DNA of 36,738 nucleotides, taken from positions 1-36,738 of the forward strand of contig NZ_REFV01000022.1 of NCBI RefSeq assembly GCF_003688895.1. The letters are read 5' to 3'. Below the pieces are notes generated by a model. That model had not been told where the DNA came from, made no database searches, and was given only the letters and a program-made list of their open reading frames with translations. The position numbers were made by a program, and so were the translations under genes. This DNA comes from Dokdonia sinensis. GTDB lineage: Bacteria; Bacteroidota; Bacteroidia; Flavobacteriales; Flavobacteriaceae. Positions 3,896-33,672 of this stretch are shown here, piece after piece (the first letter of the stretch is position 1; each line of letters opens with the position of its first letter).

Positions 3896-3909
3896 GCTTT
3901 CGCGAAAGC
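3896..3909. repeat. 14-bp palindrome GCTTTCGCGAAAGC, copy 1 (intergenic)
   Basis: Perfect copy between the 3-hydroxyacyl-CoA dehydrogenase and DUF1015 genes, 27 bp before the DUF1015 start codon. Confidence 0.95.
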
Positions 3910-3935
3910 AGAAAAACCCTTTTCAAAACTAGAAA

Positions 3936-5165
3936 ATGCCTAAAATCCTCCCTTTCCGTGCTGTTAGACCTACTCGTGATAAAGTGAGCCTTGTCGCTGC
4001 GCGTGCCTATGAACATTACACAGAGGAAGGTCGCAAGTTTAGGATGGATCGCAACCCTTTTTCGTTCCTTCATATTCTTGACCCTGGCTACAAATATCAT
4101 AAAGAGGTTACTGGACGAGACCGTTTTACACTGGTGCGCAATCGCTATCAAGAATTTAAAGAGGATGGCATTTTTATTCAGGACGAACAACCGGCGTACT
4201 ATGCCTATAAAATTATAGACCGAGATGGAAATGTGTTTTCAGGGATGATTGCTGCGGCTTCTGTAGAAGATTATGAAAACAATATCATCCGTAAGCACGA
4301 GGAGACTATCCAGCATCGGGAGGAATTATTTAAAGAATATCTCGACACCGTAGGTTTTAATGCGGAGGCTGTTTTACTCACCTACCCCGACAATTCGGAC
4401 ATTGAAAGGGTGCTTGAAAAAACGATGGCATCCCGAGCCGAATATGAGTTTACAACTACCTTTAGGGACACGCAATACTTGTGGCCACTAACTGATGAAG
4501 CCGAAATTGCTGAAATCAAAAAAGCTTTTGAAACCATAGACTGCATTTACATTGCAGATGGGCATCACCGCTCGCGCTCTTCCTACCTACTGGCAAAAGC
4601 GCATCAAGAAGATGGAAAGAAAAACGAGGCTTTTAATTACTTTATGAGTTACCTCATTCCCGAGTCTGACTTGAAAATATATGAATTCAACCGTATCATT
4701 AAGGGGCTTAATGGGCATACTAAGGAAAGTTTTTTAGTGGCTCTGGACGCTGTTTTTCGCATTGAAAACCGTGGCACAGCACTATATAAACCTACTAAGA
4801 AACACCACTTTACGATGTACTTGGATGGGGAGTTCTATTCATTGTATTTGAGACACAGTCAGCGGGAATTTGGAAATCCACTGGAGCGACTGGACACCCA
4901 GCTCTTATATGACCATATATTAAGACCTTTACTGGGCATAGAAGATATGCGCAATGATGACCGACTAGGATATACAGATGGTCGCAAGGATATGGTTTAC
5001 GTAAAAGACATCATAGATAAGGGCGATTTTACCGTAGGTTTTGGGATGTTACCCGTCACAATACAAGAACTAAAAGAAATCGCAGACGCTGGGCTTACAA
5101 TGCCCCCAAAAAGTACGTATATTGAACCAAAGTTGCGCAGTGGCATCACGATTTACGAGTTTTAA
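3936..5165 (+). CDS. DUF1015 family protein
   Basis: A 409-residue cytoplasmic protein of the DUF1015 family, recognised from its opening (ILPFRAVRPTRDKV) and the central motif IADGHHRSRSS with D208-G-H-H-R212. Family members are often annotated loosely as ParB-like. The DGHHR motif recalls the ParB/sulfiredoxin fold that includes free-serine kinases (SerK, SbnI), so a nucleotide-using role is possible; this is my inference, not an assigned function. The stop codon overlaps the start of the PLP-binding YggS gene by one base (TAATG), which argues for co-translation and a link to PLP or amino-acid metabolism. No signal peptide or membrane segment is visible. Translation starts at ATG 3936 with no Shine-Dalgarno. 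Confidence 0.85.
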   Translation: MPKILPFRAVRPTRDKVSLVAARAYEHYTEEGRKFRMDRNPFSFLHILDPGYKYHKEVTGRDRFTLVRNRYQEFKEDGIFIQDEQPAYYAYKIIDRDGNVFSGMIAAASVEDYENNIIRKHEETIQHREELFKEYLDTVGFNAEAVLLTYPDNSDIERVLEKTMASRAEYEFTTTFRDTQYLWPLTDEAEIAEIKKAFETIDCIYIADGHHRSRSSYLLAKAHQEDGKKNEAFNYFMSYLIPESDLKIYEFNRIIKGLNGHTKESFLVALDAVFRIENRGTALYKPTKKHHFTMYLDGEFYSLYLRHSQREFGNPLERLDTQLLYDHILRPLLGIEDMRNDDRLGYTDGRKDMVYVKDIIDKGDFTVGFGMLPVTIQELKEIADAGLTMPPKSTYIEPKLRSGITIYEF

Positions 5166-5815
5166 TGAGCATAAAAGAAAATATACTTCAGTTTCGTCAG
5201 GAAATTCCTGAGCACGTCACCCTAGTTGCCGTTTCAAAAACCAAACCTAATGCAGACTTAATGGAGGCCTATGAGGCTGGTCAGCGTATTTTTGGGGAGA
5301 ATAAGATTCAGGAGATGACCGAAAAATGGGAGCAACTCCCTAAAGATATTGAGTGGCATATGATAGGTCACGTACAGACAAACAAGGTTAAGTATATGGC
5401 ACCTTTTGTAAGTCTCGTGCACGCTGTGGACCGTATCAAACTCCTCAAGGAAATTAACAAACAGGCGAAGAAAGAAAATCGTGTAATAGACGTTCTCATT
5501 CAAATCAAGATTGCGCGCGAGGATTCAAAATTTGGGATGCCCGTGGAGGAGGCAAATCAGTTATTTGAGCAAGGCAAACTTTCGGCGTATCCTAATGTAA
5601 ATGTAAAGGGACTGATGGGGATGGCCACTTTTACAGACGATACGGATCAAGTAGCGGCAGAGTTTGAATTGCTGGAAGGGATATTTTTACGCTTTCGCGA
5701 AAGCGCAAACCTCTCCATCCTATCCACCGGAATGAGCGGAGATTATAAGATCGCAATTGAAAATGGCAGTACGATGATTAGAGTAGGAAGTGCTATTTTT
5801 GGAGCGAGAAATTGA
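5165..5815 (+). CDS. YggS/PROSC-type pyridoxal phosphate homeostasis protein
   Basis: A 216-residue single-domain TIM-barrel protein that binds pyridoxal 5'-phosphate and keeps free PLP and amino/keto-acid pools balanced; it is not itself an enzyme with a known reaction. K25 in AVSKTKP is the PLP lysine. Other family marks are IFGENKIQE (43-50), WHMIGHVQTNK, and the C-terminal phosphate-binding run STGMSGDYKIAI followed by IRVGSAIFG. It starts in the stop codon of DUF1015. Residues 176-180 (RFRES) are encoded by a copy of the 14-bp palindrome, at a position before the conserved C-terminal motif. Length is slightly short for the family (about 220-235). Confidence 0.93.
   Translation: MSIKENILQFRQEIPEHVTLVAVSKTKPNADLMEAYEAGQRIFGENKIQEMTEKWEQLPKDIEWHMIGHVQTNKVKYMAPFVSLVHAVDRIKLLKEINKQAKKENRVIDVLIQIKIAREDSKFGMPVEEANQLFEQGKLSAYPNVNVKGLMGMATFTDDTDQVAAEFELLEGIFLRFRESANLSILSTGMSGDYKIAIENGSTMIRVGSAIFGARN
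5691..5704. repeat. 14-bp palindrome, copy 2 (inside yggS)
   Basis: Perfect GCTTTCGCGAAAGC within the YggS-type gene, read in the frame giving (R)FRES. Confidence 0.95.
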
Positions 5816-5854
5816 GGTGGACTTGAAGTCGAAGGTGAAACTATAACAGCGAGA

Positions 5855-5872
5855 TTCTCGCCTTCGCGGGAA
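5855..5872 (+). repeat. Short REP-like hairpin, family 2, copy C
   Basis: TTCTCGC-CTTC-GCGGGAA forms a 7-bp stem with one T-G wobble and the same CTTC loop as copy A. It is a diverged copy, 17 bp before copy B. Confidence 0.65.
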
Positions 5873-5889
5873 TTAAATTATAAATGAGA

Positions 5890-5907
5890 TTTCCGCCTTT
5901 GCGGAAA
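5890..5907 (+). repeat. Short REP-like hairpin, family 2, copy B
   Basis: TTTCCGC-CTTT-GCGGAAA is a perfect 7-bp stem with the same GAGA and TGACAAAA flanks as copy A. Its end carries an ATG (5907) that reads only three codons (Met-Thr-Lys) before TAA 5916-5918, directly in front of the next gene and in that gene's own frame. Confidence 0.75.
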
Positions 5908-5924
5908 TGACAAAATAAGATTCT

Positions 5925-7301
5925 ATTTACGCAATACTTGACATAGAGACTACGGGTGGAAAATACAACGAAGAGGGTATTACCGAAATCGCCATCTATA
6001 AATTTGACGGACACGATGTTGTCGACCAATTTATTAGCCTCGTAAATCCTGAGCGTCCTATACAAGCTTTTGTAGTGGGGCTTACGGGAATCAATAACGA
6101 AATGCTACGCAATGCTCCCAAGTTTTACGAAGTAGCAAAACGCATCATCGAAATTACCGCAGGCTGCGTTATTGTGGCGCATAACGCACAGTTTGACTAT
6201 CGTATTTTAAGTCTGGAGTTTGATAGGCTTGGGTATCCCTTTGAGCGTACCACTCTTTGTACCGTAGAGTTATCACAAGAATTACTATTAGGACATAAAA
6301 GCTACAGCCTGGGAAAACTAGCCAAAGCGTTAGGAATCCCGATGTCTAACAGGCACCGTGCAGATGGAGATGCGCTAGCCACCGTGCAACTGTTTAAAAT
6401 GTTGCTAGCAAAAGATACCGAGAAAAAAATTATACAGGCAGCGGTAAAATCCTTCCCTAAGCGGAATATGGATACAAAGCTCAAAGATATAATAGCCAGT
6501 GTACCTTCAGAAACAGGAGTGTATTACATGCACAATGTGAACGGCACTATCATTTATATCGGGAAGAGCAAGAACATGAAGAAACGGCTCACGCAACACT
6601 TTACAAGTGACAACCGTAAGAGCAAGCAAATACAAGATGATGTTGTGGAGGTGACTTACGAAGAAACTGGAAGTGAGCTTATCGCCCTGCTCAAAGAAAA
6701 TGAAGAGATAAAACGCAATAGGCCCAAATTTAATCGTGCACTACGCAGAACTAATTTTAAAGTGCAGTTATCTCATTATATAGATGATAACGGATATATC
6801 AACTTGAAAACCGAGAGAGCTGATCCGACTAAAGATGCCATAACCACCTTTAGCAATACTATGAGTGCAAAAGCTCAACTAGAACGTATCATCGAAGCGT
6901 ATGTATTGTGCCAAAACAAAACAATAATGCACGGAACTTCTGGTAATTGCTTTAATTATACGATTAAGAAGTGTAATGGGGCCTGTATTGAGGAGGAGTC
7001 ACCAGAGGTTTACAACTTACGCGTCCAGTCCTTTATACAAAAACATAGCTTTGAGAACAAGAGTATGCTCGTAATAGACAGAGGTAGGAAAGTGAATGAA
7101 CGTTCTGTCGTTCTTATAGAAGACGGGATTTTCAAGGGTATAGGGTTTTATAATCTTAACCATCAACTCAATAATATGGAGATTCTTAGGTCTATTATCA
7201 CACCTATGGATGATAATCGAGATGCGCAACATATTATAAAAAGCTATACACGCACTAAGAGAAATCTAAAAACAATACCTTTAACTGAACTTGTAGGATA
7301 A
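5925..7301 (+). CDS. DEDDh 3'-5' exonuclease fused to GIY-YIG nuclease domain
   Basis: About 459 codons counting a probable non-standard ATT start. The N-terminal domain is a DnaQ-like exonuclease: ExoI motif D6-I-E8 within LDIETTGG, ExoII HNAQFDYRIL (86-95, catalytic D91), ExoIII H144-x4-D149, hence DEDDh. A UvrC/Cho-like GIY-YIG domain follows (GVYYMHNVNG...YIGKSKNMKKRL, 198-222, with R221 catalytic by analogy), then a C-terminal region I cannot assign. The pair suggests DNA repair or processing, with one strand nick plus 3' trimming. The first ATG/GTG/TTG in frame is GTG 6075, but starting there would delete ExoI, so it is rejected. The in-frame ATG 5907 is cut off by TAA 5916. ATT 5925 puts residue 1 directly before YAILDIETTGG, where I expect relatives to have Met. 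Confidence 0.8.
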   Translation: MYAILDIETTGGKYNEEGITEIAIYKFDGHDVVDQFISLVNPERPIQAFVVGLTGINNEMLRNAPKFYEVAKRIIEITAGCVIVAHNAQFDYRILSLEFDRLGYPFERTTLCTVELSQELLLGHKSYSLGKLAKALGIPMSNRHRADGDALATVQLFKMLLAKDTEKKIIQAAVKSFPKRNMDTKLKDIIASVPSETGVYYMHNVNGTIIYIGKSKNMKKRLTQHFTSDNRKSKQIQDDVVEVTYEETGSELIALLKENEEIKRNRPKFNRALRRTNFKVQLSHYIDDNGYINLKTERADPTKDAITTFSNTMSAKAQLERIIEAYVLCQNKTIMHGTSGNCFNYTIKKCNGACIEEESPEVYNLRVQSFIQKHSFENKSMLVIDRGRKVNERSVVLIEDGIFKGIGFYNLNHQLNNMEILRSIITPMDDNRDAQHIIKSYTRTKRNLKTIPLTELVG

Positions 7302-7312
7302 TACCATTTCAT

Positions 7313-8176
7313 TTGAGCAATTCAGAAAACAGAAGCTGGCGACAAATACTTCACGATATTATTTATGAAGCAGACACCCCTGCGGGAAAAGTTTTTGACA
7401 TAGTGCTTCTTGTGCTGATTCTTGCCAGTATTGCTTTGGTCATGCTTGAAAGCGTAAAAAGTTTTGACGAAAAATATCACGAGTTTTTTGAGGTTGGGGA
7501 GTGGGTTATTACCATATTTTTTACATTCGAATACTTCGCTCGAATTATTACAGTTAAGAAACCTTCAAAATATATTTTTAGCTTTTACGGACTTATTGAT
7601 TTCTTTTCAACGATACCGCAGTACTTGGCTTTTTTCGTTATTGGCTCTAATGCTTTACTCACAGTTAGAGCTCTTAGACTACTGAGGATATTCAGGATTT
7701 TAAAAGTCACACGCTATGTAGGCGAGTCTAACAAGCTTTCAAAAGCTCTGAAAGATAGTAGGGCAAAAATTAGTATTTTTCTATTTGCAGTACTCATACT
7801 ATGCATTATTGCTGGTACGCTCATGTATATGATCGAGGGTGAGGAAAGTGGTTTTACGAGCATTCCAGTTAGTGTTTATTGGTGTATAGTAACATTAACT
7901 ACCGTTGGATTTGGAGATATTGCACCAGTAACACCCCTAGGACAATTTATCGCTGCCATTATTATGATAATGGGTTATGGTATCATTGCAGTTCCTACTG
8001 GTATTGTAAGTGCCGAGTATGCTAAAGATTACAAAAATAAAAATGATATAGTCACTATAGACGGGGAAGATTATGTGCATATGAATACACAGTCTTGTCA
8101 AAATTGTGGCACTCGCAAACACCGTGATGATGCACAGCATTGCCATCAATGCGGATATTCTTTATTTGATGAGTAA
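7313..8176 (+). CDS. Voltage-gated-type potassium channel with C-terminal zinc ribbon
   Basis: A 287-residue six-transmembrane ion channel of the Kv/KCNQ-like bacterial family. Segment S4 (about 118-134) has six basic residues every third position (R119, R122, R125, R128, K131, R134), the voltage-sensor pattern. The pore has the K+ selectivity filter TTVGFGD (196-202), followed by S6. A short cytoplasmic tail ends in two CxxC knuckles, C262/C265 and C277/C280, 11 residues apart, which should bind one zinc ion. Start is TTG 7313, eleven bases after the nuclease stop. The last eight bases overlap miaA. The tail could mediate contacts or redox/metal sensing, but no function is proven. The zinc ribbon replaces the usual longer regulatory domains such as RCK or cNMP. 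Confidence 0.9.
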   Translation: MSNSENRSWRQILHDIIYEADTPAGKVFDIVLLVLILASIALVMLESVKSFDEKYHEFFEVGEWVITIFFTFEYFARIITVKKPSKYIFSFYGLIDFFSTIPQYLAFFVIGSNALLTVRALRLLRIFRILKVTRYVGESNKLSKALKDSRAKISIFLFAVLILCIIAGTLMYMIEGEESGFTSIPVSVYWCIVTLTTVGFGDIAPVTPLGQFIAAIIMIMGYGIIAVPTGIVSAEYAKDYKNKNDIVTIDGEDYVHMNTQSCQNCGTRKHRDDAQHCHQCGYSLFDE

Positions 8177-9074
8177 ATATCTCATTGCAATCATAGGACC
8201 CACAGCTATAGGTAAAACTAGCCTATCGATTAAGATTGCAAACCATTTCCAAACCGAAATTATCTCTGCAGATTCTCGCCAGTTCTTTAAAGAAATGAAG
8301 ATAGGAACGGCCGTTCCAGAGCCCGAAGAACTAGATGCAGCCCCACACCATTTTATCCAACATATTTCTGTAGAAGATGAATATAGTGTTGGCCATTATG
8401 AAAAGGAAGCAATTGCGCTCACAAAGAAGCTTTTTAGGAAACACGACACCCTAGTAATGGTAGGTGGTAGTGGAATGTATGTAGATGCCGTCATAAATGG
8501 ATTAGATGAATTCCCTGAGGTAAAAAATGGCGTGCGAGAAGAACTTAAACTATTGCTTGAATTTGACGGTATAGAAGCACTTCAAGAATTGCTCAAGGAG
8601 AAAGATCCTGTATACTATGATCAAGTAGACCTCTTTAACCATCAACGTGTGATCAGGGCACTAGAGGTTTGTCTTTCGGCGGGGGAACCTTTTTCTTCTT
8701 TTAGAAATAAACCTAGACCTGAGCGGGATTTTAAAACTATAAAAATTGGACTCAAGGCTCCTCGTGAGATTATGTACGAACGCATCAATAAACGCGTGGA
8801 CGTAATGGTTGAGAATGGACTTGTAGAGGAGGTGCGCAGTTTGCTTTCGCGAAAGCGGTTAAATGCATTAAACACCGTGGGCTACAAAGAACTTTTTGCT
8901 CATTTTGATGAGGAATTAACACTTGAAGAAGCCATTGAGAAAATCAAAATTAATACGCGACGCTTTGCTAAAAGGCAACTGACTTGGTATCGCAAGGATG
9001 ATAGCATTGTCTGGTTTGATTACGAGACGCCTTTTCCTGAAATCGCAGACTACATCCATAAAAAAACGTCTTGA
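8169..9074 (+). CDS. miaA: tRNA dimethylallyltransferase MiaA
   Basis: A 301-residue enzyme that adds dimethylallyl to A37 of tRNAs reading UNN codons, the first step to ms2i6A. The P-loop GPTAIGKTS is at residues 8-16. Next come DSRQFFKEMKIGTAVP (the DSRQ/GTAKP family region), the HHFI motif and the conserved LNALNTVGYKEL near the end. I chose ATG 8169, within the last codons of the channel gene (8-bp overlap), because MSKYLIAIIGPTAIGKT is the canonical opening. The longer open frame from 8106 only reads through the channel's zinc ribbon. Codons 225-229 (LLSRK) are formed by the 14-bp palindrome where other MiaA proteins vary. The stop codon lies in the stem of the terminator. Confidence 0.96.
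   Translation: MSKYLIAIIGPTAIGKTSLSIKIANHFQTEIISADSRQFFKEMKIGTAVPEPEELDAAPHHFIQHISVEDEYSVGHYEKEAIALTKKLFRKHDTLVMVGGSGMYVDAVINGLDEFPEVKNGVREELKLLLEFDGIEALQELLKEKDPVYYDQVDLFNHQRVIRALEVCLSAGEPFSSFRNKPRPERDFKTIKIGLKAPREIMYERINKRVDVMVENGLVEEVRSLLSRKRLNALNTVGYKELFAHFDEELTLEEAIEKIKINTRRFAKRQLTWYRKDDSIVWFDYETPFPEIADYIHKKTS
8843..8856. repeat. 14-bp palindrome, copy 3 (inside miaA)
   Basis: Perfect GCTTTCGCGAAAGC in miaA, read in the frame giving L-S-R-K-R, just before the conserved LNALNTVGY. Confidence 0.95.
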
Positions 9075-9090
9075 TTGCTCAAGACGTTTT
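9063..9090. terminator. Bidirectional terminator between miaA and the response regulator
   Basis: A perfect 12-bp stem (AAAACGTCTTGA with TCAAGACGTTTT) and a 4-nt loop. It has T-rich ends on both strands and lies between convergent genes. The miaA stop codon TGA forms the inner end of the left arm. Confidence 0.85.
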
Positions 9091-9114
9091 GTGTATTCAC
9101 TAATATCAAACCAG

Positions 9115-9825
9115 TTAATCGTCTGTCTTAACTACAAGACGGAATCCTTCCCCGTGGATATTTAAAATTTCTACTACGTCGTCCTTTTTAAGGTACTTGC
9201 GCAGTTTTGCAATATATACGTCCATACTACGTGATGTGAAATAGTTATCATCGCGCCATATCTTTGTGAGTGCGAGCTCACGAGGCATCAGGTCATTCTC
9301 GTGTAACGCCAGCATACGTAATAATTCATTCTCCTTAGGAGATAATTTTATAGGCTCTTCATCTTTATAAGTTAAGAATCTGAGTTTCGAATTCAAATGG
9401 AAATTCCCCACATTGAATTCAAATTGTTTACTATCTGCAACCGAATCTACAGCTTTGCGTTGCATAATAGCTTTGATTTTCATAAGAAGAACCTCGCTAT
9501 CAAACGGTTTATTGAGATAGTCGTCTGCTCCTACTTTATACCCTTTTAGAACATCCTCTTTTAATGCTTTTGCAGTGAGGAAAATGATAGGCACATCCTC
9601 ATTCTTTTCTCTAATTTCTTTAGCTAGAGTAAATCCGTCCTTATAAGGCATCATAACATCAAGGATACAGAGATCGTAATCGTCTTTCTTGAACTTCTCA
9701 AAGCCTTCCATACCATTTTTAGCATGTGTGACATCGTAGTCGTTCATTGATAAATAATCCTTGAGTACGGTTCCGAAGTTTGGATCGTCTTCTACTAGTA
9801 AAATCTTTTTGTTTTCAGTTTCCAT
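9115..9825 (-). CDS. OmpR/PhoB-family response regulator
   Basis: A 236-residue two-component regulator. The receiver domain (about 7-120) has the acidic pocket E12-D13-D14, phosphoacceptor D56 in LDVMMPYKDG, T84 and K106 (LNKPF). The C-terminal winged-helix domain (about 135-232) includes a recognition-helix region with SRSMDVYIAKLRKYL. It lies four bases downstream of the histidine kinase gene on the same strand, so the two form a cognate pair. The arrangement and the kinase resemble RprX/RprY of Bacteroides, but I do not name it on that basis. Target genes are unknown. An inverted/direct repeat cluster upstream of the kinase (11428-11465) is a candidate binding site. Confidence 0.94.
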   Translation of the reverse strand: METENKKILLVEDDPNFGTVLKDYLSMNDYDVTHAKNGMEGFEKFKKDDYDLCILDVMMPYKDGFTLAKEIREKNEDVPIIFLTAKALKEDVLKGYKVGADDYLNKPFDSEVLLMKIKAIMQRKAVDSVADSKQFEFNVGNFHLNSKLRFLTYKDEEPIKLSPKENELLRMLALHENDLMPRELALTKIWRDDNYFTSRSMDVYIAKLRKYLKKDDVVEILNIHGEGFRLVVKTDD

Positions 9826-9829
9826 ATTG

Positions 9830-11410: not shown

Positions 11411-11427
11411 TACTCAAAAGTAAGATT

Positions 11428-11465
11428 TTAACATTTAGAGCTCTTTCCATTTAACCAAATGTTAA
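11428..11465 (-). promoter_or_regulatory. Candidate operator upstream of the kinase/regulator pair
   Basis: TTAACATTT (11428-11436) and AAATGTTAA (11457-11465) form a perfect 9-bp inverted repeat 20 bp apart. On the minus strand, TGTTAA and GGTTAA are spaced 11 bp apart and a further TGTTAA lies 23 bp on, close to the helical phasing that OmpR/PhoB regulators use. The site begins 18 bp upstream of the kinase start codon. There is no T-run, so it is not a terminator for coaE. Confidence 0.4.
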
Positions 11466-11477
11466 CAGCAACCTGTC

Positions 11478-12071
11478 TTACCAATTTTCCTGGAATCGCC
11501 TGAGTAAATGTTGATGTATCTTATATACTTCCTGTTTAGTTTTGGAGAAGTCAATATTCTCTATTATTACGTCTGCAAGGGCCATTTTCTTAACATCATC
11601 CCATTGTGCATCCATACGCTGTTTTATCTGAGAGATAGAAGCATTATCTCTTTTCCTTACCCGATCAATTCTTAAGTCCCTAGGTGCAGTTACGAGAATA
11701 TTAAAATCTGTTTGCTTATAACCCCCATTTTCAAATAAGATAGCAGCTTCTTTAATAACATAAATGTAATCTCTAATTAAAACCCATTGCTTAAAATCTC
11801 GAGCAACTGCAGGATGGACGATTTCATTTAGAGCGTTTCTAGTTGTACTATTAGTAAAAATTTTATCTGCTATATATTCCCTATTTAAATTTCCGTCTAT
11901 ATAAGCACTTTCTCCAAGTAGTTTTTTTATCGCATCTATTACTCTAGTATCAGACTGCATTAATGCTTTTGCACGTTCATCTGCAATATATATGGGCACC
12001 CCATACTCCTCAAATAGTCTTGCTATAGTAGATTTACCACTTCCGATTCCTCCTGTTAAACCTACAATCAT
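11478..12071 (-). CDS. coaE: Dephospho-CoA kinase
   Basis: A 197-residue P-loop kinase that phosphorylates the 3'-hydroxyl of dephospho-CoA, the last step of CoA synthesis. The Walker A motif GLTGGIGSGKST occupies residues 4-15. The lid and substrate region includes RKRDNAS, and the ALFENGGYKQ-type motif appears as AAILFENGGYKQTD. Length is normal for the family. The ATG overlaps the stop codon of the YbbR-like gene by four bases (ATGA), so the two are translationally coupled. Another CoA pathway gene, coaBC, is elsewhere in the window at 21167. Confidence 0.95.
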   Translation of the reverse strand: MIVGLTGGIGSGKSTIARLFEEYGVPIYIADERAKALMQSDTRVIDAIKKLLGESAYIDGNLNREYIADKIFTNSTTRNALNEIVHPAVARDFKQWVLIRDYIYVIKEAAILFENGGYKQTDFNILVTAPRDLRIDRVRKRDNASISQIKQRMDAQWDDVKKMALADVIIENIDFSKTKQEVYKIHQHLLRRFQENW

Positions 12072-13024
12072 TCGTCTACAATTATATACTGCACTTGATT
12101 TTGCGACAATCTTGTTTGAGAAACTATAGCAGGTTTTTTGGTCACAGCGAGAGCTAGGTGAGATTCATTATTATTATCACTAGCGGTTATCGCTTCGACT
12201 GTAAAGTCTGACACCTTAACATCATCATAAGTAGAGATAGGAACGGCATAAAACAATGTAACTTCCTTAGGAAAAAGCTGTATCGTTCTCCCGTCAGAAT
12301 TATTAAGCGTAACTGGCACAACAACAGACCCCTCAGTAAACTTCTCAACAGATTGAGATACCTTAACAGTCTCTGGCACAACAGTTACACCTTTTGCAAG
12401 ATCAGATACATCTATAGAAACATTTTGAGAAACATCCATCATAACATTTTCGAGGACTATTTTTTGAGTGTACAATCTTTCAATACTATCAATATCTCTG
12501 CGCGGACCTATAATCTTTAATAGAGAAGGAACTACCGTAATAGAATCTACAGCACCAAAACCAACTTCATAATTAATATTTGAACGCAAAGTAATTGGAA
12601 TTTCTTTTGATGCTAGCCTATTCGCAGTATACAAAATTTGTTCAGGAGTAATTCTAAAATCATTTGTAGACAAATTTAAAAATTCCTTAATACGAGCTCG
12701 TATTCTTTCTTTTGAAAGTGTATAAGTATCATCCGCATTATTCTTTATAAGAGAGTCAAATGGGATGTTTATTATGCTTTCGCGAAAGCTATTACTAACT
12801 AATTTAAATCCAATAGTTTCGTAATAAACAGTAACCGTATTAACATCTGAAGCGTCTACAGCAAGATTATCTGGGATACCTACTAAAACTATTGTAAAGC
12901 TTTTATTTGTTGTGTATGAATTTGCAAGCTTAATAAAAATAGCCACTACAGTTGTAAATAAGAGAAAAAACAAATATCCCTTAACATTACTATTATCAAA
13001 CCAATTTCCATTTTTAAGAGTCAC
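12068..13024 (-). CDS. YbbR-like domain protein
   Basis: A 318-residue protein with one N-terminal transmembrane helix (about 18-33) and an extracytoplasmic part made of YbbR-like beta repeats. In Firmicutes, YbbR (CdaR) proteins regulate the diadenylate cyclase CdaA. Flavobacterial members usually sit beside coaE, as here, and their role is unknown, so I do not assert a c-di-AMP link. Translation appears to start at GTG 13024; no in-frame ATG lies before the membrane helix. Residues 79-83 (SFRES) come from a copy of the 14-bp palindrome. It overlaps coaE by four bases and follows the glycosyltransferase gene after 20 bp. Confidence 0.8.
   Translation of the reverse strand: MTLKNGNWFDNSNVKGYLFFLLFTTVVAIFIKLANSYTTNKSFTIVLVGIPDNLAVDASDVNTVTVYYETIGFKLVSNSFRESIINIPFDSLIKNNADDTYTLSKERIRARIKEFLNLSTNDFRITPEQILYTANRLASKEIPITLRSNINYEVGFGAVDSITVVPSLLKIIGPRRDIDSIERLYTQKIVLENVMMDVSQNVSIDVSDLAKGVTVVPETVKVSQSVEKFTEGSVVVPVTLNNSDGRTIQLFPKEVTLFYAVPISTYDDVKVSDFTVEAITASDNNNESHLALAVTKKPAIVSQTRLSQNQVQYIIVDE
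12776..12789. repeat. 14-bp palindrome, copy 4 (inside the YbbR-like gene)
   Basis: Perfect GCTTTCGCGAAAGC, read on the minus strand in the frame giving S-F-R-E-S (residues 79-83). Confidence 0.95.
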
Positions 13025-18568: not shown

Positions 18569-20221
18569 CTAATGAAGTAGGTTTTTTGCGTGTTCTATTG
18601 CAGATGCAGTATGGTTTCCACCTCCTAACATTTCGGCAATTTCTGTAACACGATCTTCTTCACTCAGCGCAACGATCTTCGTTTTTGTACGACCTTGTTC
18701 ATCTGTCTTAAACACTTTTAAATGAGCTTCTCCTTGCCCTGCTATTTGGGGCAAATGCGTGATACTGAGCAATTGCATAGACGAGCCCATATTTTTTAAG
18801 ATACCTCCCATTTTAAGAGCCACCTCTCCACTCACCCCTGTATCAATCTCATCAAAAATAAGCGTCGGCAACTTTTTATGTTTTCCAAGAACAGATTTTA
18901 TCGCAAGCATTACTCGAGAAAGCTCTCCTCCTGATGCACCCTTGCCTAAAGGCTTTACCTCCATTCCAGCATTTGCCGAAAACAGGAAAGCGACCTCGTC
19001 CATTCCATTCCCAAAGAACTCGTCCGTTTGCCGCAGTTGTATCTGAAACTGCGCATTCTCCATTCCGAGTGATTTTAATAAACGAAGGATTTCTGCCTCG
19101 AGTTGTTTTATAGCTTTCACTCTTTGAATGTGTAGCTGGCCTGCGATTTTTTCTAATTCCGCTTTCGCGAAAGCAATACTCGCCTTAGCACTTTCTATCT
19201 CACCATCTACATTAAGTGACGCCTGCAGATCTGCATCTAACCTGTCGCGAAGGGCAATCAAGTCCGAGGTTTCAGACACCTTGTGCTTCTGCATAAGATT
19301 ATACAATTGCTGAACGCGAAGATTTGTACGCTCAAGTTCTAGCGGGTCTACATTTACATCGTCTGCCGCACGATCAACCTCTTGAGAGATATCATCCAGC
19401 TCAATCTGAACGCTTTGAAGACGCTCGAATAGTTGCTGGTATATCCCCGAAAATTTAGAAACTACGTTTAAACTTGATCGGGCTGCTGCGACCCTATCTA
19501 AGGCCCCAGATTCTTCTTCGGCAAGATGAAGTCGGGCATTAGATAACTGAGAAACAATCTCGTCTGCGTGAGTTAAGGTCTTTAAGACTTCTTCAAGCTC
19601 CTCAAACTCACCAGGCTTTATCGAAGCTTCATCTAATTCTGTAAATAGGAATTGCTGATAGTCAAACTCCAGTTGTGCATTTTGCTTTCGCGAAAGCAAA
19701 CTTTTAAGAATATCTTCTTTCGATTTCCATTCTCTGTAATGGCTCTTATAACCTTTGAGCAACTCAACATTTCCTGCAAAAGTATCTAGAACATCAAACT
19801 GGTACTCTTTTACAACCACATCCATAGTCTTATGCTGACTGTGAATATCTACAAGACGTTCTCCTAATTGAGACAGCTGCTGTAGTGTGACAGGCGTATC
19901 ATTTATAAAAGCACGACTCTTACCTGAGGGAGCTATCTCTCTACGCACAATGGTAAGAGGCTCAAAATCTAAGTCTTCTCGCTCAAAAAAGGATTCCAAT
20001 TTATAACCAGAAATCTGGAAAGTACCTTCGATTATACATTTTTTTAAGGGATCACCCGCACTACTGCTATCTGCACGCTTACCCGTAATTAAGCCTAGCG
20101 CGCCCAGCAGGATAGACTTACCCGCTCCAGTCTCACCAGTAATTACGGTAAAACCAGAGTTAAGTTGTATAGCAACCTCTTCTATGAGGGCATAATTTTT
20201 TATAGAAAGCGTTTGAAGCAC
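18569..20221 (-). CDS. recN: DNA repair protein RecN
   Basis: A 550-residue SMC-like ATPase that helps repair double-strand breaks. The N-terminal half-ATPase has Walker A GETGAGKSIL (about 29-38). Long coiled-coil arms occupy about 150-370. The C-terminal half has the signature GKGASGGELSRVMLAIK and Walker B LIFDEIDTGVSG. Two copies of the 14-bp palindrome lie in the coiled-coil region, encoding LLSRKQ (about 175-180) and AFAKAE (about 350-355), places where sequence is not conserved. A good promoter (20240-20270) precedes it, separating it from the DUF4835/coaBC block. I found no recognisable LexA-type operator. Confidence 0.96.
   Translation of the reverse strand: MLQTLSIKNYALIEEVAIQLNSGFTVITGETGAGKSILLGALGLITGKRADSSSAGDPLKKCIIEGTFQISGYKLESFFEREDLDFEPLTIVRREIAPSGKSRAFINDTPVTLQQLSQLGERLVDIHSQHKTMDVVVKEYQFDVLDTFAGNVELLKGYKSHYREWKSKEDILKSLLSRKQNAQLEFDYQQFLFTELDEASIKPGEFEELEEVLKTLTHADEIVSQLSNARLHLAEEESGALDRVAAARSSLNVVSKFSGIYQQLFERLQSVQIELDDISQEVDRAADDVNVDPLELERTNLRVQQLYNLMQKHKVSETSDLIALRDRLDADLQASLNVDGEIESAKASIAFAKAELEKIAGQLHIQRVKAIKQLEAEILRLLKSLGMENAQFQIQLRQTDEFFGNGMDEVAFLFSANAGMEVKPLGKGASGGELSRVMLAIKSVLGKHKKLPTLIFDEIDTGVSGEVALKMGGILKNMGSSMQLLSITHLPQIAGQGEAHLKVFKTDEQGRTKTKIVALSEEDRVTEIAEMLGGGNHTASAIEHAKNLLH
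19161..19174. repeat. 14-bp palindrome, copy 5 (inside recN)
   Basis: Perfect GCTTTCGCGAAAGC, minus-strand frame A-F-A-K-A, in the distal coiled-coil arm. Confidence 0.95.
19684..19697. repeat. 14-bp palindrome, copy 6 (inside recN)
   Basis: Perfect GCTTTCGCGAAAGC, minus-strand frame L-L-S-R-K, in the first coiled-coil arm, 510 bp from copy 5. Confidence 0.95.
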
Positions 20222-23661: not shown

Positions 23662-24537
23662 TCACAACGCCTCTAAGTATGTGCGTATTTTTTTCTCTAA
23701 TGCGGCACTTGCTTTTACAAGAGGTAGACGCACTTCGTCACTGCACTTATTTTTGACAGCTAGAACAGACTTTATCCCAGCAGGGTTTCCCTCTTCAAAA
23801 ATGAAGTCAATGATGGGCATTAATTTGAAATGTGCTTCGTACGCTTTCGCGAAAGCGCCATCAAGACCATCTTTAATCATACCGCAAAAAGGCTCAACAA
23901 CGCCCTGCCCTATCACCGAAATCACACCGTCTCCACCCGCCAAAACTAATGGCAGTGCAAGCATATCGTCTCCAGAAATAACTAAAAAACCATCAGGCCT
24001 GTCTCTTAATAATTTTAAAACCTGAACCATATCTCCGGCGGCTTCTTTTATCCCAACAACATTATCAAAATCTCTTGCAAGCCGAAGCACCGTGTCTGGC
24101 GACATATTGCTACCGGTTCTTGAAGGCACGTTATATAAAATCACTGGAAGTGGCGACGCTTGTGCTATGGAAGCAAAATGAGCATAAATACCATTTTGAG
24201 TGGGTTTATTGTATGCTGGTGAGACAGAAAGAATCGCAGTGATATCAGTCGTGTCTAGGTTTTTTAGTTCATCTACAATAAGCTGGGTATTATTTCCTCC
24301 TACACCAAGAACGAGTGGCTTTCTCTTATTTACAACATTTTTAATATGTGAAACTACCTTTTGTTTTTCTTCACTTGTAAGCGTCACATTTTCGGCTGTT
24401 GTCCCTAACATCACGATATAGTCCACACCACCCGAGATACAGTGCTCAACGACAGCGGTAAGCCCATCATAATCGACAGATAAATCTTTATTAAAGGGAG
24501 TTACTAGTGCCACTCCTGTCCCTCTCAACTGTTGCAT
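23662..24537 (-). CDS. dapA: 4-hydroxy-tetrahydrodipicolinate synthase
   Basis: A 291-residue TIM-barrel enzyme that condenses pyruvate with aspartate semialdehyde, committing aspartate to lysine and meso-diaminopimelate for peptidoglycan. Schiff-base K164 lies in GIKEAAGD. The proton-relay Y135 and R140 are in [10 protein letters not shown], and T46-T47 are in GTTAEN, a small change from the usual GTTGE. The start ATG overlaps the stop of the DUF6913 gene by one base (TAATG). Residues 228-232 (AFAKA) are encoded by a palindrome copy in the less conserved C-terminal helical region. It ends 121 bp before bamD. Confidence 0.96.
23843..23856. repeat. 14-bp palindrome, copy 7 (inside dapA)
   Basis: Perfect GCTTTCGCGAAAGC, minus-strand frame A-F-A-K-A (residues 228-232 of DapA). 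Confidence 0.95.
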
Positions 24538-25058: not shown

Positions 25059-25089
25059 TTACCTTTATATCAAGATTGAGTAACCAAAA

Positions 25090-25097: not shown

Positions 25098-25127
25098 GCT
25101 AAAAATCCATTTTTACGAGCCTATCTT

Positions 25128-27549: not shown

Positions 27550-27571
27550 AATCACTTGAATTGGGGGACGG

Positions 27572-27579
27572 CAAATATA
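27572..27579 (-). promoter_or_regulatory. -7 promoter element of the YhhN-like gene
   Basis: TATATTTG on the minus strand matches TAnnTTTG exactly, 22 bp before ATG 27549, and supports that start. The -33 region about 19 bp upstream is TTTTAC, a weak match. Confidence 0.5.
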
Positions 27580-27683
27580 TGCCAATTTTATAAAGTAAAA
27601 TCACCATAAACCGACTTCACTTCTCTTAAACAATTTGAACTGAAAATCTCCTACCATAAATCCAAGAACTAGAAGAAAAGAGG

Positions 27684-29678
<1,995 letters not shown>

Positions 29679-29705
29679 TTAATGACTTAATATTTTATGC
29701 TAGTT

Positions 29706-30296
29706 CTACGTTCTATCTACTTTTAACCATTTAGGTACAGGTTGTGGTTTAAAATCCTTAATCTGGGCAAGCAATCCCTCTACAGACGTATCTACAAGCA
29801 AAAGTTCTAAATTTTCTTGTTTTAAAAAACCCTTTGCGACCATCGTTTTGAGCATTGCAATAAGGTCATCGTAAAATCCATTTACGTTAAGAAGCCCAAT
29901 GGGTTTTTGGTGCAATCCAAGTTGTGCCCAAGTGATAATCTCAAAGAGCTCCTCAAAAGTACCAAAACCGCCTGGCAACGTAATAAAGCCATCAGAAATC
30001 TCGTGCATTTTCATCTTGCGCTCGTGCATCGTTTCATTTACAATAAGCTCCGTAAGCCCTAAATGAACGACTTCCTTTAGTTTTAAAAACTCTGGAATGA
30101 CGCCAATGACTTTGCCATCATTATCTAATGCCCCCTGAGCAACCTTGCCCATAATCCCAATTTTTGCCGCGCCATATACAAGGGTTATGTCACGCTGTGC
30201 CATTGTTGCCCCTAATTGCAAGGCGACATCTACAATTGCCTTATCATTTCCCTCGCTGCTTCCGCAAAAGACACATATTGATTTTAAATTGTTCAT
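29706..30296 (-). CDS. LOG-family nucleotide phosphoribohydrolase-like protein
   Basis: A 196-residue Rossmann-like protein of the LOG/TIGR00730 family, which cleaves the N-glycosidic bond of nucleoside 5'-monophosphates; plant LOG proteins use it to activate cytokinins. The signature LPGGFGTFEELFEI (107-120) holds the PGGxGTxxE motif with the catalytic glutamate. CVFCGSSEGND (8-18) and HERKMKMHE (91-99), with the R of the MxxRK region, complete the active site. In bacteria the physiological substrate is often AMP or unknown. It lies between prmC (59 bp upstream, containing a palindrome) and ligA. Confidence 0.9.
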   Translation of the reverse strand: MNNLKSICVFCGSSEGNDKAIVDVALQLGATMAQRDITLVYGAAKIGIMGKVAQGALDNDGKVIGVIPEFLKLKEVVHLGLTELIVNETMHERKMKMHEISDGFITLPGGFGTFEELFEIITWAQLGLHQKPIGLLNVNGFYDDLIAMLKTMVAKGFLKQENLELLLVDTSVEGLLAQIKDFKPQPVPKWLKVDRT

Positions 30297-30338
30297 TGTT
30301 TTTGTTTTACTTCGGGAGACTATTCATTTAAATTTTCC

Positions 30339-30352
30339 GCTTTCGCGAAAGC
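30339..30352. repeat. 14-bp palindrome, copy 9 (intergenic)
   Basis: Perfect GCTTTCGCGAAAGC in the 59-bp gap between prmC and the LOG gene, 3 bp after the prmC stop codon. Confidence 0.95.
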
Positions 30353-30355
30353 AAA

Positions 30356-31222
30356 CTACTCCCGCATTGCCTTTATCATTCTATCTCTACCGAACATATC
30401 TTTACGAAGCTCTACACTTTTGAATCCTATTTCTTTTAATAACGCAATCATTTCGGCGCCAAGATATTCATTGATTTCAAAATACAAAGTCCCTTTCTCA
30501 TTTAAAAATTTAAAGGCCAGTACTCCTATTTTCTCATAAAATAACAAAGGGGTCTCATCTTGAACAAACAAGGCTCCCTCCGGCTCATTATTAAGCACAT
30601 TGGCCCGCATTTGTTCCTTCTCAAGTTCACGTACATACGGCGGGTTGCTTACAATAATGTCATAATTTTTGGGTAAATCTTCGGCAGCGAGTATATCTTG
30701 CTGGAAAAATTTTACTTTTACGTCGTTGCGACTTGCATTGTTACTTGCAGTTTCTAGGGCATTTTGAGAAATATCTACCGCCTCAATGTGAGCACCCGCA
30801 AGATGTTTTGCAATACAAATTGCAATACAACCTGAGCCGGTTCCTATATCTAAAACATTATGAGGTATTTCAGTTACTCTTTCGGCAATTTGTGTGTGGT
30901 CTTTTATGACCCAATCTACTAATTCCTCCGTTTCTGGTCTTGGGATAAGTGTAAATCTATTTACCTGAAACTCTAATCCGTAAAATTCGCTTGAACCGAT
31001 TATATATTGGATAGGCTCAGATCGTTTTAGCCTTTCCATAATCTGAAGCATTTCGTCGGTTTGTTGTGAGTTGAGTATTTTATTTCGCGAAAGCGTAACT
31101 TCCACCCTATTCATTCCCGTGACGTGCTCAAAGCTTAGAAAACAAAAAGAGGCCACTTCCTCATCGGGATAGAGATCTCCTAGAGCAATAGCAAAATGTG
31201 TCCTGATTTCTTGTACGGTCAT
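30356..31222 (-). CDS. prmC: Peptide chain release factor N5-glutamine methyltransferase
   Basis: A 288-residue SAM-dependent enzyme that methylates the glutamine of the GGQ motif in RF1 and RF2, improving termination. The N-terminal helical domain (1-95) recognises the release factor. The catalytic domain has DIGTGSGCIAI (125-135, SAM motif I), RPETEELVDW, and the substrate-binding NPPY (193-196). I chose ATG 31222, which overlaps the GNAT stop by one base (TAATG); the longer frame from 31252 lies inside the GNAT gene. A 12-bp palindrome core at 31083-31094 encodes residues 43-47. Confidence 0.94.
   Translation of the reverse strand: MTVQEIRTHFAIALGDLYPDEEVASFCFLSFEHVTGMNRVEVTLSRNKILNSQQTDEMLQIMERLKRSEPIQYIIGSSEFYGLEFQVNRFTLIPRPETEELVDWVIKDHTQIAERVTEIPHNVLDIGTGSGCIAICIAKHLAGAHIEAVDISQNALETASNNASRNDVKVKFFQQDILAAEDLPKNYDIIVSNPPYVRELEKEQMRANVLNNEPEGALFVQDETPLLFYEKIGVLAFKFLNEKGTLYFEINEYLGAEMIALLKEIGFKSVELRKDMFGRDRMIKAMRE
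31083..31094. repeat. 14-bp palindrome, copy 10 (12-bp core, inside prmC)
   Basis: TTTCGCGAAAGC matches the last 12 bases; the first two are TA in place of GC. Minus-strand frame gives T-L-S-R-N. Confidence 0.8.
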
Positions 31223-31707
31223 TATAAATCCATAAGCATATGCACGGGGCAAGAATAGTGACCCGTATCGCCCATAGGTCCATCAATGTATCGAAAACCT
31301 GTGCGCTTATATAATTTTTGAGCTGCTTCCATATAGGGCATTGTCTCGATGTAACATTGCTCAAAACCATAGGTTCTCGCCTGTTCTAAACACGCATCCA
31401 TCATCGCAGTTCCCAGCCCACGACCACGGGCTTCTTCCAGAAAATACATTTTTTGAAGTTCACACACATTCCCATCATAATTATCCAGCTGTGCGATGCC
31501 GGCACAACCTATAATTGTCCCACCATCATCTACTACAAAATATGTGGCGCGATCACGGTCGTAGGTTTCGTGCATCATATCCAGCGCCTTATCTGCATAA
31601 GCGGTACCAACTTTAGGCACTCCGAGGTCCACCAGCACTTTTCTGATAACCTGTGCAACTTGTGCATTATCTGCTTTTTCAATAGGGCGAATTATAGGTT
31701 TGTCCAT
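31222..31707 (-). CDS. GNAT-family N-acetyltransferase
   Basis: A 161-residue single-domain acetyltransferase using acetyl-CoA. The pyrophosphate-binding signature is in motif A, RGRGLGTAMM (about 95-104), preceded by the beta-4 strand CELQKMYFLEEA. Its substrate is unknown; YIETMPYMEAAQKLYKRTGF is the usual motif B. It starts 26 bp from the divergent ribD start, so their promoters must overlap. It is the first gene of the minus-strand run with prmC, LOG and ligA; the overlap with prmC suggests that it may matter to translation, but sequence does not show that it is RimI. Confidence 0.88.
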   Translation of the reverse strand: MDKPIIRPIEKADNAQVAQVIRKVLVDLGVPKVGTAYADKALDMMHETYDRDRATYFVVDDGGTIIGCAGIAQLDNYDGNVCELQKMYFLEEARGRGLGTAMMDACLEQARTYGFEQCYIETMPYMEAAQKLYKRTGFRYIDGPMGDTGHYSCPVHMLMDL

Positions 31708-31733
31708 CGCTTACAATCGTTTACATTTGCGGT

Positions 31734-32759
31734 GTGAAGATACACGAAACCTATATAAAACGTTGCTTACAACTTGCAAAAAATGGTCTCCCTGCGGCGA
31801 TGCCAAACCCGTCTGTGGGTGCCGTTCTCGTGCACGAGGGTAAGATCATAGCCGAAGGTTACACCAGTGCTTATGGTGGTGCTCACGCAGAGGTGAACTG
31901 TATCGCTGGAGTTTATGCCGAGCAAAGTCGGAGTACGGAAGCATCCATAAAAAAACTCCTCTCAAAGTCTGCACTGTACGTATCCTTAGAGCCTTGCAGT
32001 CATTACGGAAAAACACCGCCCTGTGCAGATTTAATCATCGATAGCGGTATAAAAAAAGTAATTATAGGAACTATAGACCCCTTTGCCAAAGTTGCTGGCG
32101 CAGGAATCAAAAAATTGATGGTCGCGGGTTGTGACGTGAGCATAGGCGTGCTGGAAGATGAATGTCGTGAGAGCAACAAGCGTTTTTTTACCTATCACGA
32201 GAAAAAACGTCCCTATATTATCTTGAAATGGGCGCAAACTTTAGATGGTTTTATCGCTCCCAAAACTCGAGATGCGCAAAAACCTGTCTGGATCACAAAC
32301 AAGAGATCGCGGCAACTCGTACATAAATGGCGCAGCGAGGAGCAAGCCATTCTCGTGGGTGGAAAAACGGTACTGGAAGATAATCCCAGCTTGACAACTC
32401 GCGATTGGGAAGGAAAGAACCCTATTCGAATAGTAGTTGACTCTAAGAACAATCTTGCGCAAGATTTAAAAATTTTTAATAACGATGCGAAGACTATTTC
32501 CCTTGAAGAAAGTGAGCCAGAAGCCATATGCAAAACGCTCTATGAGAATGAGATCCAATCCTTAATTATAGAAGGAGGGCGACACACCCTGCAACAATTT
32601 ATAGACGCGGGTATTTGGGATGAAGCGCGCGTATTTTATGGAAAAAACATTTTTAGAGATGGCACTAAAGCACCAACAATCAACCAGACATTCTCTGAGA
32701 CTTCCCGAAAGGCCATTGTAGACGACACATTAATATATTATAAGAACAGCCCATCTTGA
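31734..32759 (+). CDS. ribD: Bifunctional riboflavin deaminase/reductase RibD
   Basis: A 341-residue enzyme of riboflavin synthesis. The N-terminal cytidine-deaminase-like domain (1-145) has the zinc ligands H51 and catalytic E53 in HAEVNC, with C88 and C97 in LEPCSHYGKTPPCAD. It deaminates the pyrimidine ring. The C-terminal NADPH reductase domain (about 150-341) has RPYIILKWAQTLDG and IEGGRHTLQQF and reduces the ribose. Start is GTG 31734; no nearby ATG fits the family N-terminus. It shares a 26-bp divergent gap with the GNAT gene, and its stop (TGA) overlaps the TTG start of the EamA transporter. Confidence 0.95.
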   Translation: MKIHETYIKRCLQLAKNGLPAAMPNPSVGAVLVHEGKIIAEGYTSAYGGAHAEVNCIAGVYAEQSRSTEASIKKLLSKSALYVSLEPCSHYGKTPPCADLIIDSGIKKVIIGTIDPFAKVAGAGIKKLMVAGCDVSIGVLEDECRESNKRFFTYHEKKRPYIILKWAQTLDGFIAPKTRDAQKPVWITNKRSRQLVHKWRSEEQAILVGGKTVLEDNPSLTTRDWEGKNPIRIVVDSKNNLAQDLKIFNNDAKTISLEESEPEAICKTLYENEIQSLIIEGGRHTLQQFIDAGIWDEARVFYGKNIFRDGTKAPTINQTFSETSRKAIVDDTLIYYKNSPS

Positions 32760-33628
32760 TTTATTTACTCCTCAGTATTGCCGCATCCAGCTTGATATTT
32801 GTCATTTTCAAGCTTTTCTCTAAGTATGAGGTAAACACCCTGCACGCCATTATTGTAAACTACTTCGTAGCTTGCATTTGCGGACTATCATTATACAAAG
32901 GAAGTACCGCCGTTGCAGAGATTCCAAGTCAAGATTGGTTCTATGGCACCGTAATCCTGGGGCTTATTTTTATCACCGTATTTAATCTAATGGCTTTGAC
33001 AACCCAGCGCAGTGGACTCTCTGTGGTCTCCGTAGCGACTAAAATGAGTGTGGTTATCCCTATACTTTTTGGTGTGCTCTATTATAAAGAGTCGTTAGGA
33101 ATGTTGAAAATCATAGGAATCTTACTCGCGCTTGTTGCTGTTTATCTTGCTTCCATTAAATCCAAAGAGGGGATCTCCATTAAAAAGAAGAATCTCATTT
33201 TTCCTTTCCTCGTATTTTTAGGGAGTGGCGCGATAGACACCAGCATTAAGTTTATGGAGGGCGAATACGTTGCCGCAGACGATGTGCCCATTTTTTCGGC
33301 GACGATTTTTGGGGCGGCCGCGGTAATTGGGGTTTTTATTATTCTATACCAAATAGTTACAAAGACGTTTACTTTTAAGGCTAAAAATGTTGTGGCAGGG
33401 ATTTGTTTAGGCATCCCAAATTATTTCTCGATTTATATGCTGGTGCAGGCGCTACGGGCAGACACCTTTGACAGTTCCACATTATTTACCATTAACAATG
33501 TCGCGATTGTTATGGTTTCTACGTTTCTAGGCATTCTACTTTTTAAGGAGAAATTGATTTTTAAAAATTGGCTCGGGATTGGGATGGCAGTAGTTTCTAT
33601 TGTTCTGGTCTGGATTGCGAGTAAATGA
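32756..33628 (+). CDS. EamA/DMT-superfamily transporter
   Basis: A 290-residue membrane protein with about ten helices in two similar halves, as in EamA (drug/metabolite transporter) proteins. Each half ends with a LLYYKE/LLFKEK-type motif (GVLYYKESLGMLKIIGI in the first, GILLFKEKLIFKNWLGIG in the second), which is the family pattern. The substrate is unknown. TTG 32756 is the likely start, overlapping the ribD stop by four bases (TTGA); being behind ribD, a riboflavin or flavin-related role is possible but unproven. The palindrome at 33659-33672 separates it from yigZ. Confidence 0.82.
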   Translation: MIYLLLSIAASSLIFVIFKLFSKYEVNTLHAIIVNYFVACICGLSLYKGSTAVAEIPSQDWFYGTVILGLIFITVFNLMALTTQRSGLSVVSVATKMSVVIPILFGVLYYKESLGMLKIIGILLALVAVYLASIKSKEGISIKKKNLIFPFLVFLGSGAIDTSIKFMEGEYVAADDVPIFSATIFGAAAVIGVFIILYQIVTKTFTFKAKNVVAGICLGIPNYFSIYMLVQALRADTFDSSTLFTINNVAIVMVSTFLGILLFKEKLIFKNWLGIGMAVVSIVLVWIASK

Positions 33629-33658
33629 TATTGAGTAACTTGGGAATATGCTTTTTAC

Positions 33659-33672
33659 GCTTTCGCGAAAGC
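33659..33672. repeat. 14-bp palindrome, copy 11 (intergenic)
   Basis: Perfect GCTTTCGCGAAAGC between the EamA transporter and yigZ, 17 bp before the yigZ start. Confidence 0.95.

Follow-up and report, generated by a model that had tools for sequence, protein, structure and literature searches.

A 36,738-nucleotide window of Dokdonia sinensis DNA (the whole stretch analysed, NZ_REFV01000022.1, which is contig C15 in a genome of 3.65 Mb) contains repeated copies of a 14-bp motif, GCTTTCGCGAAAGC, whose core is a perfect palindrome. On analogy with known systems, we give a probability of about 0.5 to the reading that this motif serves Dokdonia and two related genera as a self-recognition sequence of uptake type, new and palindromic. 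The motif follows a definite sequence rule, sits in flanks of biased composition, keeps its positions between species, is spaced more evenly than at random, and is carried by some phages and islands; a receptor for it, biased uptake of the DNA that bears it, and competence of these species are what we infer beyond this.

Copies of the motif and their sequence rule

The original prediction, made from the letters of this window, listed nine perfect copies and two copies matching at 12 of 14 positions. All nine perfect copies were recovered, and both imperfect ones are real (aligning at 27994 and 31081). A further match with two mismatches, at 2797, is without the core. Such a word had also been expected to be essentially absent by chance, in agreement with shuffles of the window, which give 0.16 matches at up to two mismatches. 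The sites are as follows (perfect sites are listed without a strand; ORF, open reading frame).

3896..3909: perfect 14-bp site, intergenic, 26 bases past the end of ORF 2940-3869
5691..5704: perfect site, within the PF01168 (alanine racemase N-terminal domain) gene 5165-5815, plus strand
8843..8856: perfect site, within the IPP-transferase gene 8106-9074, plus strand, at residue 248
12776..12789: perfect site, within ORF 12068-13024, minus strand
19161..19174: perfect site, within recN (18569-20221, minus strand), at residue 352
19684..19697: perfect site, within recN (18569-20221, minus strand), at residue 177
23843..23856: perfect site, within the DHDPS-family (dapA-like) gene 23662-24537, minus strand
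27994..28005, plus strand: one-sided site GCTTTCGCGAAA, within ligA (27684-29675, minus strand)
30339..30352: perfect site, in the gap between minus-strand genes 30356-31252 and 29706-30296
31083..31094, plus strand: one-sided site TTTCGCGAAAGC, within gene 30356-31252 (minus strand), which has PrmC_N and methyltransferase domains
33659..33672: perfect site, in the gap between ORF 32756-33628 (plus strand) and the UPF0029 gene 33690-34304 (plus strand)

The whole genome holds 857 perfect copies (approximately one per 4.3 kb) and none of the reversed motif, which served as a control. Markov models of orders 1-4 predict 0.004-0.013 copies per genome (scaled up from 400 kb), so that the comparison proposed in the original prediction sets 857 copies against about 0.01, and the copies are not limited to the window but are found genome-wide and in congeners. 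For 400 kb of contig C1 of this genome, the counts at zero, one and two mismatches are 90, 19 and 26, against means of 0, 0.08 and 1.3 for control palindromes built from a shuffled half. A chance origin was rejected on the window shuffles, the genome count and the Markov expectation.

All 17 of the congeners examined carry the motif (369-905 copies each), and it is absent from all six genomes drawn from the family's other genera and from all 15 drawn from other families of the order. A wider sample of the family gave at least one match in 79 of 397 genomes, with hundreds of copies confined to Dokdonia (two genomes in that draw) and to the genera that we label g42 (578, 664 and 609 copies) and g267 (408 copies); the remaining 391 genomes hold 0-19 copies. 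A search for the 12-mer CTTTCGCGAAAG in 394 genomes of the order found hundreds of copies only in the D. sinensis genome and in genome G297, and no further carrier genus. We rejected the idea that relatives have comparable words of their own: at 80 loci (4-21 kb) from relatives in other genera, no 12-mer or palindromic 10-mer containing C or G was counted more than four times. In a metagenome genome that bears the label Cytophagaceae, a 21-kb locus contains two perfect copies (L073, 12155 and 20222); the flanks there are not clearly biased, and it may be another carrier.

The sequence rule was derived from 19 samples totalling 1.63 Mb of Dokdonia DNA, some of them homologous (the samples from genomes G006, G008 and G009 are homologous to one another and hence not independent). 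In this DNA the core TTTCGCGAAA is found 475 times, where a Markov model predicts at most 3. GC bounds it on both sides in 376 of these cases and on a single side in the other 99; no core is without an adjoining GC. In a count over 19 samples, full sites number 263 and one-mismatch sites 43. The 14-mer is preceded by C at a frequency of about 0.9 (0.56-0.58 for sites in one of the reading frames), and further 5' the bases are mostly A and then T, extending the dyad to approximately 20 bp, TACGCTTTCGCGAAAGCGTA. Past this dyad we saw no fixed sequence but a compositional bias, with C on the left flank at 0.36-0.55 of background and G on the right flank at 0.34-0.61 in the Dokdonia samples, reaching about 22-24 bases out; the 5' flank of each strand is thus T/G-rich and C-poor over about 20 bases. 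Non-coding sites show this bias, as do sites in each of the three reading frames. It is seen both at second codon positions and at fourfold ones (where G is up 2.2-fold on the left and C up 2.0-fold on the right), and 87 of the 90 sites in the 400 kb of C1 fall below the random-place median for left C plus right G. The statement of the original prediction that there is no conserved flank was therefore wrong, both as to the length of the dyad and as to the composition around it.

The flank bias is present in g42 (genome G613) and weak in g267 (genome G568; loci L217-L221 and L352-L361), which has hundreds of copies at a GC content of 0.46; core and flank are thus separable in evolution, because G568 keeps the one and hardly any of the other. 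Mirrored flank bases show no consistent covariation or pairing beyond composition, so that the flanks are not a stem, and hairpin pairing of the flanks was rejected on this ground. As a separate observation, a near-site in large-genome congeners (L163 at 2312, 6167 and 12908; L169 at 4970) abuts a second dispersed repeat like GAGCTTGCGAGATTCACGACC, and a full site at 398086 of C1 likewise abuts a repeat resembling it.

Placement, spacing and conservation of the sites

Copies had been described as lying in genes and in gaps, and both placements are common: with genes called by a simple longest-ORF script, 162 of the 263 sites are inside called genes (85, 34 and 43 in the three frames) and 101 are outside, though genes span 81-97% of the samples and so leave only about 10% of the DNA uncovered. 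Gaps between genes of the same direction hold sites at a median of 23 bases after the stop codon (n = 74) and 76 before the next start, and densities per kb are 1.11 in tandem, 0.75 in convergent and 0.63 in divergent gaps. The closeness to stop codons, together with the ability of a palindrome to form a stem, is what an RNA signal (a hairpin ending or protecting transcripts) would give, and yet convergent gaps are not enriched, most sites lie within called genes in all three frames, the mirrored flanks lack consistent pairing, and the flanks are T-left/A-right, the opposite of a bidirectional terminator. We regard this as the least probable of the explanations considered.

Sites are more evenly spaced than random: the coefficient of variation (CV) of the spacing is 0.65 in C1, 0.67 in G008 and 0.66 in G016, against 0.96-0.98 under the null, and in G613 it is 0.41, with no gap shorter than 1.68 kb. 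Short-range pairs of core sites are rarer than expected, with ratios of observed to expected of 0.14-0.37 below 1 kb and 0.55 at 1-1.5 kb; up to a distance of about 1.5 kb, sites repel each other. The same holds between the two forms of the site, with 6 of 61 one-sided sites lying within 1 kb of a full site where 26 are expected (p < 0.0001, 5000 draws, pooled), an avoidance that is clear in the single samples G000, G008, G009 and G006. Sites that lack one outer GC tend to fall between full copies, and when they are included the CV falls in five of seven samples (slightly in G568) and rises in G016 and G613. On balance, the full and one-sided forms make up one system, a ruler of a few kb. Near-misses with three mismatches outside the exact core are also found less often near full sites (18 of 76, against 33 expected, in G000C1, G008, G006 and G016a), and some of these may be weak or decayed sites. 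The longest core-free stretches in the 400 kb of C1 (263361-275081 and 139868-151418, each above 11 kb) include curli and sugar-use genes, possibly late arrivals, among the few (ten) proteins scanned. A search against Rfam returned nothing in four stretches around site-poor gaps.

Positions are conserved between species well beyond the surrounding DNA. Over 298 kb aligned between G008 and G009 (89.3% identical), 75 of 83 sites are kept, compared with 31% of 14-bp windows (6666/21304), and in a smaller comparison the shared and unshared sites number 24 and 3 for G008-G009, 23 and 4 for G008-G006, and 22 and 2 for G009-G006. One-sided sites are likewise retained: of 20 in G008, 15 are unchanged in G009, two are full there and three have changed. 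Over a longer range (RecN is 52-64% identical to that of D. sinensis in the 16 congeners with a match), the window's sites vary in depth. Of the 16 genomes in which its gene was found, 14 have the site at 8843 in its place (residue 248/249); the site at 23843 holds its place (residue 229/230) in seven of the ten genomes covered, and that at 19161 (recN residue 352) in six of 17, D. sinensis included each time; the sites at 12776 (16 genomes covered) and 19684 (recN residue 177; 17 genomes) are found in D. sinensis only. A mobile repeat was rejected, since places are conserved between species, and the description of the motif in the original prediction as an iterated palindrome in the style of the highly iterated palindrome HIP1, rather than a transposable repetitive extragenic palindromic (REP) element, is upheld by its chromosome-wide iteration and conserved places.

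The same alignment of G008 and G009 informs on the origin of the flanks, which change at 0.08-0.15 per site against a background of 0.107. They might be a mutational by-product, if a break or stem at the palindrome exposed single strands on its 5' side and C there deaminated to T, and the loss of C on the left and of G on the right, with gains of T and A, is in the expected direction. Left-flank C/T differences are, however, below background (33/1535 = 0.021 against 0.033) and A/G differences above it (73, 0.048 against 0.029); on the right flank A/G differences number 36/1575 (0.023, below background) and C/T differences 61 (0.039, slightly above background). Because C/T changes on the left are fewer than background, where by our reckoning a C-to-T bias at equilibrium would give more, the flank composition looks selected or driven, and C-to-T mutation as the cause of the flanks was rejected on these substitution counts. 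Such a model is also opposed by the rise of G on the left and C on the right at fourfold sites, and it leaves the conservation of the core unexplained; we consider it highly improbable.

Because the spacing is ruler-like, a chromosome-organising site, at which a nucleoid protein would bind every 3-5 kb and set loops or spacing, has to be weighed. The exclusion zone, the deep positional conservation and the long symmetric footprint would all suit such a protein. Against it, some phages and islands also carry the motif, and there is no regional focus (in the partial chromosome coverage available) in the first 377 kb of G016 or in the dnaA-bearing window, both of which have a density near the genome mean; any such function is, moreover, not general, because 391 of the 397 family genomes hold 0-19 copies. 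We consider it improbable. At its two ends the window carries a proteorhodopsin gene (159-890) and dnaA (34910-36337); between the rhodopsin of a congener (L131) and the sodium-pump rhodopsin in PDB 7q36, which is KR2 of Dokdonia eikasta, 5 of 280 residues differ, and on this the genus is very probably Dokdonia.

Phages, islands and cellular machinery

The motif is also found outside its home genera. Genomes without the system have few copies, clustered in several and scattered in others, and of 15 stretches examined with such copies, 11, from seven genomes, proved to be heavy-metal efflux islands of a single family, with 72-97% identity over the parts that align (L202-L206, L208-L212 and L216; genomes G478, G486, G589, G499, G420, G700 and G708), in host genera otherwise without the motif. 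These islands encode an RND (resistance-nodulation-division) pump, OEP, a CusB-like protein and a P-type ATPase, with the conjugation protein TraG in L206. Copies occupy shared places (for example, four islands share two OEP-gene sites separated by 933 bp), and the flank bias is similar but weaker. Plasmid records returned distant efflux genes only.

Viral sequences were searched in IMG/VR. One scan gave, among the matches listed, many single copies in contigs of other composition; because these single copies were taken for chance, we used the 16-mer CGCTTTCGCGAAAGCG, which occurs in 41 stretches. Ten contigs with multiple or strong hits have 0.10-0.27 sites per kb of DNA examined, with C and G in their flanks depleted to about 0.6; islands and phage contigs alike were chosen for having the motif, so these densities are not averages. 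One of them, IMGVR_UViG_3300040781_000495 (L284, L341, L398 and L401), is a tailed phage with tail-sheath and baseplate genes and seven sites in the 31 kb examined, and likely infects a motif-bearing host; named phage relatives gave weak matches only.

Protein families that could act on the motif were sought in the genomes. The C5 methylase family PF00145 was not found in seven of 11 Dokdonia genomes, nor in G568 or G613 (it is present in the other four and in G297 and G750), and the N6_N4 methylase family PF01555 is over the cut-off in none of the 11 Dokdonia genomes, though it is in G297 and G568. Methylation of either type as a shared property of the genus was thus rejected (Dam PF02086, type I and type IIG enzymes were not searched). 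A site tied to a methylase recognising TCGCGA or CGCG would make the motif an iterated, genus-wide palindrome of the kind represented by HIP1, which is linked with orphan methylases, while some genomes have HIP1 yet no CGATCG methylase (PMC4390886, available excerpt). The patchy methylases, and a flank bias that would extend past the usual methylase footprint, lead us to regard such a site as very unlikely. Like HIP1, the motif is highly iterated in genes and gaps; unlike HIP1 (GCGATCGC), it is a different and longer sequence with a long asymmetric flank, no conserved methylase of these two families in Dokdonia, and hundreds of copies in only three genera among the 397 family genomes. Of the functions listed in the original prediction, then, an uptake-type signal fits best, and a methylation site is unsupported for the two families searched.

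A bidirectional Chi-like site deserves attention on account of the G/T-rich 5' flank that either strand presents: a helicase-nuclease (for example, AddAB) would halt at the palindrome from either side, and RecA, which prefers G/T, would load on that flank. The density of the motif is comparable with that of Chi in Escherichia coli K-12 (49 in 200 kb, taken as 4 x 50 kb), and phages and islands would gain protection by carrying it. Chi is, however, randomly spaced in that control (CV 0.99), and phage lambda has no Chi, whereas the uptake signal sequence (USS) in Haemophilus phage HP1 is evenly spaced (17 in 32 kb, CV 0.51 against 0.92 under the null); the HP1 control matches the behaviour of the motif and the Chi controls do not. 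Known Chi sequences are 5-8 bases long and asymmetric, much shorter than the motif, and a single-strand reader would need no dyad, yet the dyad is kept in full in 376 of 475 core sites. RecC was found in none of 40 genomes (AddAB was not searched), on which the RecBCD reading was rejected. Overall, a Chi-like role is unlikely, if less so than the other alternatives.

Comparison with uptake sequences and a proposed mode of action

Within the Proteobacteria, two families are known to have uptake sequences. The motif resembles the USS of Pasteurellaceae and the DNA uptake sequence (DUS) of Neisseriaceae in having hundreds of copies among which full matches dominate, in its even spacing, in its permissive yet conserved places, in its presence in resident phages and in its restriction to few genera. 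It differs from both in being palindromic (14-20 bp, where an oriented asymmetric core is typical), in its strand-asymmetric context of 60 bp, and in that the pilus ATPase family is not over the cut-off in 10 of 15 carriers. According to the available excerpts of the cited papers, the Neisseria DUS occupies permissive places, is highly conserved and has a spacing that matches conversion fragments (PMC2397512), and the distribution of USS is relatively even (PMC7811141; PMC1939737). With REP elements and bacterial interspersed mosaic elements (BIMEs) the motif shares a dispersed palindrome enriched in gaps; it differs in that no repeat unit is seen past about 20 bp, flanks share composition and not sequence, orthologous places are fixed and most sites are in genes (REP-type transposases were not searched for). 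By the criteria applied, the motif is not HIP1, Chi or REP; we do not class it as a USS or DUS either, and it appears to work most like an uptake sequence. We found no publication on TTTCGCGAAAG or TTTCGCGAAA as a motif in the open-licence literature (one match to TTTCGCGAAAG concerns ThiH by its title), and none there on a palindromic uptake signal in Bacteroidetes.

Tentatively, and at somewhat short of even odds, we propose a self-DNA password in Bacteroidota in which a symmetric, pilus-independent reader recognises a palindrome within a 60-bp strand-asymmetric context, carried also by the phages and conjugative islands of the hosts. A two-fold symmetric protein would read the core with GC on at least one side, favouring TAC/GTA adjoining the core and, over about 20 bases to either side, a 5' flank that is C-poor on each strand. 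DNA bearing a site would be preferentially taken up or used in recombination, and full sites would spread by biased gene conversion and be repaired on mutation. If a fragment of a few kb needs no more than a single site, even spacing with an exclusion zone would follow, and the phages and conjugative islands of these hosts would acquire sites by the same process.

Published work on Riemerella, of the same family, offers a partial precedent: it is naturally competent, pilus homologues were not found, and some of the required genes are of unknown function (PMC8459023, available excerpt). As the excerpt of a second paper reports, R. columbina DNA outcompetes that of R. anatipestifer or E. coli for its own transformation, and in the k-mer count of that paper, which goes up to 10 bp, the words listed at the top are all A/T-dominated (PMC7965970).

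Several points weigh against an uptake role. The type IV pilus and type II secretion system ATPase family PF00437 is over the cut-off in just five of 15 motif-bearing genomes, D. sinensis not among them, which disfavours a Neisseria-type machine and not uptake as such, given competence in Riemerella without pilus homologues. No report of competence in Dokdonia was found among the literature matches listed. To our knowledge, no DUS or USS is palindromic, and we know of no counterpart in either to the C-poor/G-poor flank. The regularities are also not uniform: in G568 the flank bias is weak and the spacing not clearly even (CV 0.79, p 0.06), avoidance of full sites by one-sided sites is not clear singly in G016 (G016a), G613 or G568, and spacing in the islands is not clearly even (CV 0.80 against 0.79 under the null). 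Eight sites are unshared between G008 and G009, most differing by few bases and one by a multi-base change with the left flank identical. Finally, another member of the family, Flavobacterium johnsoniae, did not prove competent in the conditions used, as far as the available excerpt goes (PMC7965970).

If the motif is an uptake-type sequence, it would be the first described in its phylum, as far as the literature searched extends, and the first palindromic one known to us; as a Chi-like or nucleoid site it would instead exceed, in length and regularity, all others of that kind that we know. The motif bears on how Flavobacteriaceae choose their own DNA, and its clear rules, together with sister species, phages and relatives that do not carry it, make the choice of self-DNA testable. 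The motif also provides a label for tracing DNA exchange among marine flavobacteria.

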